Notes under the pieces: model-generated
Told to the model about the DNA's origin: nothing
Databases searched by the model: none
The model's input: the letters and a program-made list of their open reading frames with translations, nothing else
Assembly: GCA_001595385.3 (NCBI GenBank)
Contig: LVEI03000001.1
Location: 2,299,344 to 2,363,343, forward strand
Length of the DNA stretch: 64,000 nucleotides
Source: Deltaproteobacteria bacterium GWC2_55_46
GTDB lineage: Bacteria; Desulfobacterota; GWC2-55-46
Direction of reading: 5' to 3'
Made by a program: the position numbers and the translations under genes
Shown: piece by piece, positions 54,372-58,994 of the stretch
Position numbering within the stretch: position 1 is the stretch's first letter
How the letters are laid out: every line of letters starts with the position of its first letter

Positions 54372-54400
54372 TTGACACTCTGTAGAATTAAAAATATAAT
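54372..54400 (+). promoter_or_regulatory. consensus sigma-70 promoter of the cytochrome leader RNA
   Basis: A perfect TTGACA (54372-54377), 17-bp spacing and a perfect TATAAT (54395-54400). The predicted start is about 54407, more than 500 bases before the cytochrome start codon. It is the best promoter match in the window. Confidence 0.85.
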
Positions 54401-54419
54401 AAGTGTAACTTTAAAATAG

Positions 54420-54510
54420 CTGGAATGAAAGTCCCTGATGACTTTCGGTCCAGACAAGCCTTGATGCCTTGTATCACCATTACGATGTGGTCTGACAAGG
54501 CTTTTTTTAG
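54420..54510 (+). promoter_or_regulatory. two-hairpin antiterminator overlapping an intrinsic terminator (leader unit 1)
   Basis: Hairpin 1 (54420-54453) has stem CTGGA..TCCAG and GAAAGTC/GACTTTC closing a 6-base loop CCTGAT. Hairpin 2 (54454-54472) has ACAAGC with a bulged complement closing a 6-base loop CTTGAT. The terminator stem AAGCCTTG (54456-54463) with CAAGGCTT (54496-54503) and a T-run reuses the 5' arm of hairpin 2, so the two cannot form together. This is the layout of RNA targets of ANTAR proteins (two hexaloop hairpins, second one excluding the terminator). The loops share G at position 4 but have C and not the usual A at position 1. Confidence 0.6.
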
Positions 54511-54541
54511 ACTTACATGTTTTACGTTACGTAGAATATCT

Positions 54542-54637
54542 GGGCCTGGATATTTTCTATCAGGTCCTGAAGCAAGCCAAGATGAGCTTGCGCCGCTTTT
54601 GAAGTCAAACCCATCTATCATGGCCCCGCAGCCATGA
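54542..54637 (+). repeat. structured leader unit 2
   Basis: Hairpins at 54542-54567 (GGGCCTG/CAGGTCC), 54572-54591 (GCAAGC/GCTTGC) and 54618-54637 (TCATGGC/GCCATGA, loop CCCGCA). The second and third are near copies of those in unit 3. There is no T-run after this unit. Confidence 0.55.
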
Positions 54638-54646
54638 AGTTCGTAG

Positions 54647-54753
54647 CCGGATGAGAGCTCATGAAGGGGCTCAATCATCCGGATGCAAGCCTTGACAGGC
54701 CTTGCAGCTCTACCCGGCGAAGACGCCAACCTATCATGGCCTCGAAGCCATGA
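54647..54753 (+). repeat. structured leader unit 3
   Basis: Hairpins at 54647-54682 (CCGGATGA/TCATCCGG with an inner GAGC/GCTC and a 6-base ATGAAG loop), 54685-54705 (GCAAG..CTTGC with inner CC/GG) and 54734-54753 (TCATGGC/GCCATGA, loop CTCGAA). The last two copy unit 2 at the same spacing (46 and 49 bases between starts), so the unit has been duplicated. Confidence 0.55.
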
Positions 54754-54923
54754 AAAAAAAAGCAAAATCGGCGGGAAGTAAAGCTCACGCAGGGCTTACT
54801 ATCCTGAAAACATGCCACGACGCTTTAGCGACATCAAACTGTCGGAGGTTGGCTTATTCAGGGCACGTGGTGCTCAATTACAGCCTCCCCATAATGACAT
54901 GGAATTTTGAAAGGGGAAGAGCA

Positions 54924-55835
54924 ATGAAGAGATTCCTCACACTCGCAATCGCGACAGCTTCAATCGGTTTCATAGCGGCAGGCACGGCGTCCGCTACGAC
55001 TGTATCCAACTACACCGCAGGTTCTGCCGCCACCGGCATCGCCCAGTCAAGGCACAATCTCGGCGCATTCGGCGCGCATCTTACATCAAACGGCACGACC
55101 GAGATATGCGTATTCTGTCACACGCCTCACCATACCAGCAGCACCGGGGCCGGACCGTTATGGAACAGGGGCGCGTCTGTCACCGCTTTTACCGCCTATA
55201 CCAGCACCATCGCCGGCACCACACCTGGCGCGCCTGGCGCGGGCTCGCTTGCATGCCTCAGCTGCCATGACGGTACTACCACTCTCGATAACATAGCCAA
55301 CAAGCCTGGCAAGGCCGGTCTTGGCTCCGCGGGTATCGGCTCCTCCAGCGATGCTGGCTGGTACTTCTTCGAAGACGGCATGATTGAAGATGACACGTTG
55401 GAGATGATGGATGACAGCAGGTTGGCGATCGGCATGGACGCGGACCTCTCGAACGACCACCCGATCGGCGTGACCTACTACGGCGGCACGAAGGCCTCTC
55501 TCAGGCAGACCTCGCTTACCATCGCTGGCATCAGCGTAAGCGCTGACCTCGCCTCGAGCGCCTCGTCCTACGATAGCAACAACCTTACCCAGAACCGTTG
55601 GGCTGTAAACGGGTTCGTCTCCTCGACAGCGTCCATCGCTGACCTCTTGAGGGATAACAAAGTAGAGTGCACCAGCTGCCACGACCCGCACTTCAGCAAC
55701 AAGTCGTGGACCGAGATCGACGCTACATATTCCACAGACCCTATGGAGCAAGAGATGATGTCTGACGGAATGTTCTTGAGAAGGGTCGGCGGAAACGCAG
55801 GTTCCGGCGTTTGCAGAACCTGTCACGAGAAGTAA
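54924..55835 (+). CDS. exported tetraheme c-type cytochrome
   Basis: 303 residues from ATG 54924 (AAGGGGAAGAGCA upstream); an in-frame extension to 54702 is leader RNA. The signal peptide ends TASATT. Four heme motifs are CVFCH, CLSCH, CTSCH and CRTCH, the first in the doubled-CXXCH style EICVFCHTPHH, where the extra His can ligate a neighbouring heme. An acidic Met-rich loop (EDGMIEDDTLEMMDDSRLAIGMDADL) lies between hemes 2 and 3. The general plan matches extracellular or outer-surface tetraheme cytochromes of metal-reducing bacteria (OmcE-like), but that assignment is tentative. A terminator follows, and an ANTAR gene lies next. Confidence 0.8.
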   Translation: MKRFLTLAIATASIGFIAAGTASATTVSNYTAGSAATGIAQSRHNLGAFGAHLTSNGTTEICVFCHTPHHTSSTGAGPLWNRGASVTAFTAYTSTIAGTTPGAPGAGSLACLSCHDGTTTLDNIANKPGKAGLGSAGIGSSSDAGWYFFEDGMIEDDTLEMMDDSRLAIGMDADLSNDHPIGVTYYGGTKASLRQTSLTIAGISVSADLASSASSYDSNNLTQNRWAVNGFVSSTASIADLLRDNKVECTSCHDPHFSNKSWTEIDATYSTDPMEQEMMSDGMFLRRVGGNAGSGVCRTCHEK

Positions 55836-55843
55836 GCTTACCT

Positions 55844-55881
55844 GCCGGGAAAGTGGCCCCGCCCACTTTCCCGGCTCTTTT
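55844..55881 (+). terminator. intrinsic terminator of the cytochrome gene
   Basis: A perfect 13-bp stem GCCGGGAAAGTGG and its complement around a 6-base loop, then TCTTTT. It separates the cytochrome from the ANTAR gene, although read-through would express both. Confidence 0.8.
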
Positions 55882-55903
55882 ATAAGAGCAACTGAGGCCA
55901 CAT

Positions 55904-56278
55904 ATGATACGGGACGGAGCCAAAAGCGCCATATTAAAAAGACAGGGTGTCAAAATGGTATCCAGAGCCAAAAAAAGAGATACACCGACGTTAAAACCAG
56001 CGCTTACTGATTGTCTGAGCTGTAAGGTCCTCATGGCTGAGGTAGAGGAGCTGAAGGCCAGGCTCGAAGAGCGGAAGGTCATCGAACAGGGCAAATGGAT
56101 ACTGGTCAAGCAAAAGGGGATAAGCGAAGAGGAGGCTCTCAACCTGTTGCGAGTCTCCGCGCGACGTCAGCAGAAGACGATTTGTGAGATAGCGAAGGTC
56201 CTGATAGCTGGAGAAAGGATATTGAGTGGCTCCTTTCCGGCAGGGCCGGGGGCGGCGCCGGATGAGCCAAAAAAATAA
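55904..56278 (+). CDS. stand-alone ANTAR domain RNA-binding protein
   Basis: A 124-residue protein from ATG 55904 (GAGG 6 bases upstream). The N-terminal third is basic with a CLSC pair (CxxC near residues 37-40) and a coiled-coil stretch EVEELKARLEERK. The ANTAR core follows (about 57-108): KVIEQGKWILVKQKGISEEEALNLLRVSARRQQKTICEIAKVLI, matching the family's IeqAKgiLm, eAf..LR..A and vA..i positions. There is no receiver domain. ANTAR proteins bind two-hairpin RNA and prevent termination. The leader of the cytochrome gene just upstream is the obvious candidate target. The CxxC might sense redox or metal. Confidence 0.8.
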   Translation: MIRDGAKSAILKRQGVKMVSRAKKRDTPTLKPALTDCLSCKVLMAEVEELKARLEERKVIEQGKWILVKQKGISEEEALNLLRVSARRQQKTICEIAKVLIAGERILSGSFPAGPGAAPDEPKK

Positions 56279-57786: not shown

Positions 57787-58947
57787 TCAAATGGTTGGTT
57801 TTGGACGGATATGCGGGGCAGGGGTATTTTTGGCTGCGGGGACCGTCTGGGGGGTAGCCTGTGTCACTTTGTTTTTACCGGTTAGTTTTGAGGCGTACAT
57901 GGCAGAGTCGGCCTCTTTTATGAGCGCGTCCCTTACCTCATTGAGCCCTGCGCCGCGCGGGGATGATAGGGCGGCTACCCCTATCGAGCTTGTTATCACG
58001 CCCTTTATCCTGATGGCCTTTTCGCCCCCGGGGTACCTTGCCTTTATGAAGACAAAGTCCTGTATGGTCTTCCTCAGCCTTTCGGCGAAGGCCATGCCTT
58101 CAGCCGGCGCCGTATCCGGCAGAATGACGATGAACTCGTCGCCTCCGTACCTCGCGGCCGTGGCCCTGGGGGAGGGCAGAATGGAGGCGATGACGACCCC
58201 AAGCTCGGCTAAGACCCTGCTGCCGGCGAGATGGCCGTAGTTGTCGTTCACCTCCTTGAACCTGTCGAGGTCGAGGAAGATGAGGCAGAGGTCTTTTTTT
58301 GAGCGCAAGGCGCTGCGCACGTCCTTCGTGAGCCTGTCGTAGAAGTACCTGTCGTTGTGCAATCCGGTGAGGTTGTCCCTTATCGAGAGCTCGCCGAACC
58401 TCTTGGCGTCGAGAGAGTTCTGTATGAGGGTCGATGTGTATTCGGCGAATATCTTGAGAAGCGTCAGATCGTCCGGGCCGTAGTCGATGCCGTTTTGCCT
58501 GTTGATGAGCTCGATTACCCCGATGGTAGTCCCCTTTATGCCTATAGGGGCGCAGATGATGGACTTGGTCTGGAAGTTGGTCTTCTGGTCTATCTTGGAG
58601 TAGAAGTTCCTGTCGTGCTCTACCTTCTTGCTGATATAGGGCTTGCCGGTAGTATAGGCGCTTCCGGCTATCCCCAGTGTGGCCGGAAGTGTTGTCCCGG
58701 TGAGGGCAGCCGAGCCCTTGCCGAAGCAGGCCACGAAGTAAAGGAGCCCCTGCTTCTGCCGGTCAGGGGTAAGGGTAGGGTCGTCAAGTAGTATGGAGCC
58801 GGACTCGGACGGGACGAACCTGTTCGCCCATTTGAGTATCTCCCTGAGCATCCTTTTGAGGTCGACGTCCTCGGGCCTGTACTCGTCCCTTCTCTTTCTT
58901 TCGAGTATCTTGTCGAGGACGCCCTTTTCGGTCACATTTATCAGCAT
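57787..58947 (-). CDS. GAF-GGDEF diguanylate cyclase
   Basis: 386 residues from ATG 58947 (minus strand). The predicted transcript starts near 58988, which excludes the longer frame from 58992. A GAF sensor domain spans about 30-180 (FVACFGKGSAALTGTTLPA, SIICAPIGIKGTTIGVIELINR). The GGDEF domain spans about 195-360, with RDNLTGLHNDRYFYDRL and an intact active site RYGGDEFIVILP. No RxxD inhibitory site precedes GGDEF. A basic Pro-rich tail follows. It makes the second messenger c-di-GMP in response to a small molecule bound by GAF. Confidence 0.88.
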   Translation of the reverse strand: MLINVTEKGVLDKILERKRRDEYRPEDVDLKRMLREILKWANRFVPSESGSILLDDPTLTPDRQKQGLLYFVACFGKGSAALTGTTLPATLGIAGSAYTTGKPYISKKVEHDRNFYSKIDQKTNFQTKSIICAPIGIKGTTIGVIELINRQNGIDYGPDDLTLLKIFAEYTSTLIQNSLDAKRFGELSIRDNLTGLHNDRYFYDRLTKDVRSALRSKKDLCLIFLDLDRFKEVNDNYGHLAGSRVLAELGVVIASILPSPRATAARYGGDEFIVILPDTAPAEGMAFAERLRKTIQDFVFIKARYPGGEKAIRIKGVITSSIGVAALSSPRGAGLNEVRDALIKEADSAMYASKLTGKNKVTQATPQTVPAAKNTPAPHIRPKPTI

Positions 58948-58994
58948 GGAAGCGGGAATACTCCTGCCTTGCGGGGATAAGGGTGCTCTCAATC

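Follow-up and report, generated by a model that had tools for sequence, protein, structure and literature searches.

A conserved leader RNA family upstream of OmcE-like cytochrome genes is a likely variant of the ANTAR-type antitermination switch

Among the known ANTAR systems, regulator dimers bind the loops of two small leader hairpins and keep the second hairpin (P2) closed (PMC3369931, PMC8934654). In the published targets, loop position 1 is A and position 4 is G (PMC3369931, PMC8164766), and the eut consensus AGCAANGRRGCUY has A not only at position 1 but also at position 2 (PMC3369931). ANTAR targets are mainly nitrogen-related. Except in Geobacter and Shewanella, little is known about how bacteria control the multiheme cytochromes of their outer surface. 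In a 64,000-nt stretch of the genome of Deltaproteobacteria bacterium GWC2_55_46 (the whole analysed stretch, hereafter the window), a multiheme cytochrome gene is preceded by a long leader with two hairpins whose 6-nt loops both begin with C, and is followed by a gene for a lone ANTAR protein. The question raised by this locus is whether the leader is an ANTAR-type antitermination switch, as the original prediction proposed from sequence alone. We conclude that it probably is, as one member of a leader family with its own loop code. The features of the locus are as follows.

54372-54400, forward strand: sigma-70 promoter TTGACA-17-TATAAT, 12/12 consensus matches
54420-54453, forward strand: P1, the first (recruitment) hairpin, loop CCTGAT at 54434-54439; identified by folding, stem covarying in relatives
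54454-54472, forward strand: P2, the antiterminator hairpin, loop CTTGAT at 54460-54465; identified by sequence, homologous pairs kept in relatives
54466-54508, forward strand: intrinsic terminator GCCTTGT...ACAAGGC-T7; identified by folding, stem covarying in relatives
54572-54591, forward strand: extra hairpin GCAAGC-CAAGATGA-GCTTGC with an A-N-G-R loop core, downstream of the terminator
54655-54672, forward strand: extra P1-like hairpin GAGCTC-ATGAAG-GGGCTC, downstream of the terminator, fitting the P1 consensus of relatives
54924-55835, forward strand: OmcE-like tetraheme c-type cytochrome with a signal-like N-terminus (Pfam Cytochrome_C7 and Paired_CXXCH; four CXXCH)
55844-55881, forward strand: intrinsic terminator between the cytochrome and ANTAR genes (stem-loop 55844-55875; 13-bp stem, 6-nt loop, T tail)
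55904-56278, forward strand: lone ANTAR protein (PF03861), 124 aa, without a receiver domain, Cys37/Cys40 before the coiled coil

The window leader contains two tandem stem-loops with 6-nt loops: P1 is built as CTGGA...TCCAG around GAAAGTC-CCTGAT-GACTTTC, and P2 as ACAAG-C-CTTGAT-G(C)-CTTGT. The terminator arms are GCCTTGT (54466-54472) and ACAAGGC (54495-54501), followed by T7 at 54502-54508. Since 54466-54472 is both the 3' arm of P2 and the 5' arm of the terminator, the two structures are mutually exclusive; the terminator is far stabler (about -16 vs -4 kcal/mol). The first 109 nt of the leader fold at -34.1 kcal/mol (z = -4.2 vs shuffles) and the whole leader reaches z = -5.2 vs shuffles. 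From the terminator to the cytochrome start codon there are 416 nt. Thus the perfect promoter, the two 6-base loops and the competition of the second hairpin with the terminator for one strand, all claimed in the original prediction, were confirmed, as was the lone ANTAR gene after the cytochrome, albeit with an intrinsic terminator between the two genes. The terminator start had been put at 54456 and is corrected here to 54466, where the stable stem begins; the earlier figure may be due to another GCCTTG at 54458. The copied units reported further downstream are indeed repeats (two 29-nt copies at 54610-54638 and 54726-54754, 86% identical, forming a CATGGC-loop-GCCATG hairpin). No further copy was found elsewhere in the window's genome, and being unique to this locus they were excluded from the conserved element. 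A role for the CCCGCA and CTCGAA hairpins is likewise not supported, as these hairpins are not conserved.

The window belongs to an uncultured deltaproteobacterial lineage whose relatives include assemblies labelled GWA2_55_10, GWB2_55_19 and UBA5799. A covariance model (R1) was built from 33 leaders that had been found by their layout upstream of cytochromes; their recovery by R1 is by construction, while its other copies and its non-cytochrome target genes are not. In these 33 leaders, the P1 and terminator stems are paired in 85% of cells, compared with 74% in shuffles and 31-51% with the partners slid. The covariation score for the two stems is 0.41 vs 0.23 shuffled, a value reached by 0/500 shuffles, and double-changed cells number 74 vs 33. 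Double-sided changes occur in 6/8 pairs of the aligned P1 stem. The homologous GGY...GCC pairs of P2 are kept in 97% of cells, and its nearly invariant core shows little covariation of its own. Pairing in the P2 flanks is in modest excess over shuffled flanks (1/200 shuffles as low, 23/500 after thinning). Independent support for P2 is therefore weak, as its core barely varies. The terminator is stabler than P2 in 75/78 leader rows, and the GCC arm is shared by the two structures in essentially all leaders. Most homologous leaders also have a TATAAT at a similar place upstream.

R1 matched about 110 leaders, spread over 39 of the 63 class genomes, and the 34 genomes from other classes gave no match; in a phylum-wide sample 10/395 genomes were matched, one of them outside the class. 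That sole out-of-class match is G144:C9:3093-3207 (E 1e-5). The hairpins were thus conserved in relatives as predicted, with strong covariation and a family of homologous leaders across the class, and the predicted ANTAR neighbour was kept as well, in 7 genomes of two genera. Because loops of 5 or 7 nt predominate among the relatives, a strict search requiring two G4-bearing hexaloops plus an overlapping terminator was convincing at just one locus besides the window. Rfam searches of the leader and its relatives at gathering and relaxed thresholds gave only chance-level matches, to no riboswitch or other family.

About two thirds of the 78 distinct leaders stand before OmcE-like cytochromes: 49 have a downstream gene encoding two or more CXXCH motifs and 3 are followed by cytochromes truncated by contig ends. 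About 15 leaders precede a gene for a PocR-GAF-GGDEF protein, usually followed by one for an ATPase with a HATPase domain. In the window's genome, R1 strongly matches the PocR operon and one further cytochrome paralog besides the window locus. The leader at L139 (G000:C1:1779090) and its equivalents elsewhere stand before a PocR-GAF-GGDEF gene and a gene for a large ATPase (C-terminal HATPase), which together make up a conserved operon. This operon is a likely sensor arm of the regulon. At two places (L043:2605-2696 and L094:3504-3604) a leader copy lies before a secreted-protein gene directly after a cytochrome. In the window, a GAF-GGDEF diguanylate cyclase is encoded at 57787-58992 on the reverse strand, about 1.5 kb past the ANTAR gene; it has no known link to the switch.

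The window cytochrome matches PDB 7tfs (E 2.9e-14; N-terminal homology), which we take to be the OmcE filament of Geobacter sulfurreducens, and 9yuq (E 9e-14). By its CXXCH motifs and homology it is OmcE-like; there are no data on filament formation, and the AlphaFold model (mean pLDDT 48) is too poor to judge the OmcE fold. The lineage has many paralogs, and this leader layout recurs in most of them. The two nearest paralogs have leaders (L064:1900-2190 and the L041/L074 leaders) containing 2-3 hairpins whose core is CTGATGGCGG or a close variant such as TTGAACTGATGGCGGTTCAA, showing the same A-N-G-R loop core without a clear adjoining terminator. These leaders may be an array form of the element.

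The loops carry the main departure from the published ANTAR targets. In 75 distinct leaders the P1 loops read C(69)-A(70)-N-G(75)-R(74), with the number of leaders in brackets, and the P2 loops read x-A(73)-N-G-R, with G4 kept throughout and G, A, T or C at position 1. The A1 of the published targets is missing: C stands there in 69/75 P1 loops and in both window loops. By size, P1 loops have 5 nt if the C-G pair forms, and P2 loops have 6 or 7 nt. The window loops are outliers within the family, keeping G4 and lacking the A two bases before it. The family does share other traits of dual-hexaloop targets, namely tandem stem-loops with a linker of about 2-25 nt, G4, and a second hairpin that excludes an intrinsic terminator. 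Since the A1 criterion fails, we file the leader as a variant and not as a plain dual-hexaloop member. The guess of a different loop code in the original prediction was right in substance, as G4 is invariant and A1 absent in the family. Dual hexaloops also occur in six of the same genomes, where every one of the twelve loops bears A1, A2 and G4; they lie upstream of outer-membrane-protein/amt genes and adjoin another receiver-ANTAR gene, and in each of the six, a terminator-like hairpin follows or overlaps the second hexaloop. As A1 and non-A1 loops occur in the same genomes, two codes coexist in one genome, and they differ mainly at position 1.

There are three sorts of ANTAR proteins in these genomes, i.e., the amt-adjoining receiver-ANTAR, an orphan receiver-ANTAR and the lone ANTARs. 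The orphan, found in nearly all these genomes and located in G000 at about C1:1663500, is encoded beside a radical-SAM gene and a thiG-like gene (neighbours named by eye, which we take to be hydG-like and thiG-like). ANTAR genes are present in 38/39 class genomes with the leader and 23/24 without it, so that co-occurrence says little, ANTAR being nearly universal in the class. The window ANTAR scores 54.2 bits against PF03861 (E 1.2e-14; curated cut-off 27.3) and 45.7 bits against EutV 6wsh (E 6e-11); a search of genome contigs with this protein gave no match. The original prediction had called for a search for the leader next to ANTAR and cytochrome genes, and each of the 12 intact lone ANTARs (7 genomes, two genera) has an OmcE-like cytochrome gene as its neighbour; receiver-less ANTARs were found nowhere else. 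A Cys immediately before the coiled coil is present in 12/12 lone ANTARs vs 0/33 other aligned ANTARs (EutV, NasR, Rv1626 and AmiR included), and most lone ANTARs have a second Cys 3 or 4 residues earlier. Among the EutV RNA contacts, Arg142, Lys143, Lys149 and Glu160 are kept in the window ANTAR, while Lys147 is replaced by Gln and Tyr164 by Leu; Lys149 and Glu160 are kept throughout the lone ANTARs. In the EutV-RNA structure the aromatic residue 164 stacks on G4 (PMC8934654); no aromatic stands at this position in the window ANTAR or in most of the lone ANTARs, and AmiR, a working regulator, has His there. At several loci, L068 13000-15600 (G001), L072 (G002), L076 (G004) and L083 (G019), a single cytochrome gene is flanked by 2-3 different lone ANTAR genes, of which some lie downstream and others upstream in divergent orientation; the proteins of such loci might form heterodimers.

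Possession of a lone ANTAR goes with the first base of the P2 loop, which is C in 5/5 leaders with a lone ANTAR vs 0/38 without (Fisher p 1e-6, uncorrected for kinship). On a tree of 62 cytochromes, lone-ANTAR possession requires three changes, all on supported branches, and C at P2 position 1 also requires three, at the same places. Two further lone-ANTAR leaders, off the tree, have C at this position, as does one weak match without a cytochrome. Within one genome, near-identical cytochromes differ in the same way: L083 (lone ANTAR) has C and L084 (no lone ANTAR) has G. Three independent pairs cannot be significant (sign test p 0.25), so the link is only suggestive. Joint movement of leader and ANTAR as one cassette is an alternative, and it too would be compatible with a functional unit.

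We propose that the leader is probably an ANTAR-type antitermination switch on OmcE-like cytochromes. Its structure, conservation, covariation, shared arm, target genes and neighbours are shown above; binding of the loops by ANTAR proteins, readthrough, the assignment of each ANTAR to its leaders and the signal are inferred, without binding or transcription data. On the same terms, the ANTAR-antitermination reading of the original prediction is largely supported by family conservation and covariation. RNA polymerase starting from 54372-54400 would make P1 and then a sequence that folds as either P2 or the terminator. Without a regulator, the stabler terminator would win and transcription would stop at about 54508. 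An active ANTAR dimer would bind the P1 loop, then P2, and keep P2 closed, so that polymerase would read into the cytochrome gene. The code read in this clade would be x-A-N-G-R, with C at P1 position 1, replacing the canonical A-x-x-G. At most loci the regulator would probably be the orphan receiver-ANTAR protein, while at the window and six other examined loci the local receiver-less ANTAR would probably work on its own leader.

Some observations count against an ANTAR reading as such: EutV requires A1, which the family does not have; the window loops also lack the A two bases before G4; and the G4-stacking aromatic of EutV (Tyr164) has no counterpart in the window ANTAR or in most of the lone ANTARs. 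In one rival explanation, the orphan receiver-ANTAR alone controls the leader, and the lone ANTARs are decaying copies or dampers acting through unproductive dimers. It is favoured by the far wider spread of the leader family than of the lone ANTARs, by their lack of a receiver and mostly of the aromatic contact to G4, and by the terminators between the window ANTAR and cytochrome genes. However, Lys149, Glu160 and the invariant Cys are kept in the lone ANTARs, which suggests selection and not decay; C opens the P2 loop in every one of their leaders, as expected if lone ANTARs read them; and AmiR works with His at the Tyr164 position. We regard this rival as possible but clearly less likely than not.

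It is unlikely that another regulator, e.g. CsrA binding GGA in the loop, or a small molecule acts on the leader, the ANTAR neighbours being coincidental. GGA is present in some P2 loops and no protein has been shown to bind, but many P2 loops and the majority of P1 loops contain no GGA, Rfam contains no matching riboswitch or other family, and the layout and A-N-G-R loops fit those of these genomes' canonical ANTAR elements. CsrA as loop binder was set aside on the lack of GGA in most P1 loops. That the leader is an ordinary attenuator or constitutive terminator without a dedicated regulator is very unlikely: stable terminators are common in leaders, but the loop letters are conserved at least as well as the stems (P1 G4 in 75/75), which is unexpected for a plain terminator.

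A bolder version of the proposed ANTAR switch is possible, in which the receiver-less ANTARs would be one-component redox or metal sensors without a kinase. The invariant Cys (in most, a CxxC or CxxxC pair) would link or unlink the dimer, and a private code (C1 in both loops) would tie extracellular cytochrome transcription to the intracellular thiol or metal state; sensing by Cys is inferred. Two lone ANTARs at one locus might then form heterodimers. No paper tying ANTAR control to extracellular cytochromes was found in the open-access literature, subscription papers being outside the search; what is likely new is an ANTAR-type antitermination variant on nanowire-type cytochromes, with binding and readthrough inferred. 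If true, one RNA switch on many cytochromes and the PocR-GAF-GGDEF operon would form a regulon in which extracellular electron transfer is coupled to c-di-GMP signalling, and ANTAR control would extend well past its mainly nitrogen-related targets. Two codes per genome, together with matching changes at ANTAR-bearing loci, offer a natural experiment on ANTAR-RNA discrimination, which is still unresolved.

Compared with known systems, the cytochrome itself resembles the OmcE nanowire (7tfs) in its four CXXCH motifs and N-terminal homology, and differs in length (303 aa vs 232). The predicted nitrogenase ANTAR regulon of Pelobacter carbinolicus (PMC3369931) is likewise a multi-operon regulon of a deltaproteobacterium; its targets are nitrogenase genes, however, and its loops have A1 and G4. 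The amt-operon ANTAR elements of the same genomes share dual hairpins, terminator overlap and the A2-N-G4 core with the cytochrome leaders, but have A1 in both loops of all six (AANGNN) where the cytochrome leaders have C1 in P1, and adjoin a different receiver-ANTAR gene. The EutV/EutW eut switch of Enterococcus faecalis (PMC3369931, PMC8934654) also has two small hairpins, the second overlapping the 5' arm of the terminator, with G4 conserved in both loops and several target operons per genome. The window family differs from it in the absence of A1 (C in P1), in the many loops of 5 or 7 nt by strict pairing, in its targets (OmcE-like cytochromes and PocR-GGDEF), and, at the window locus, in an ANTAR protein without a receiver.
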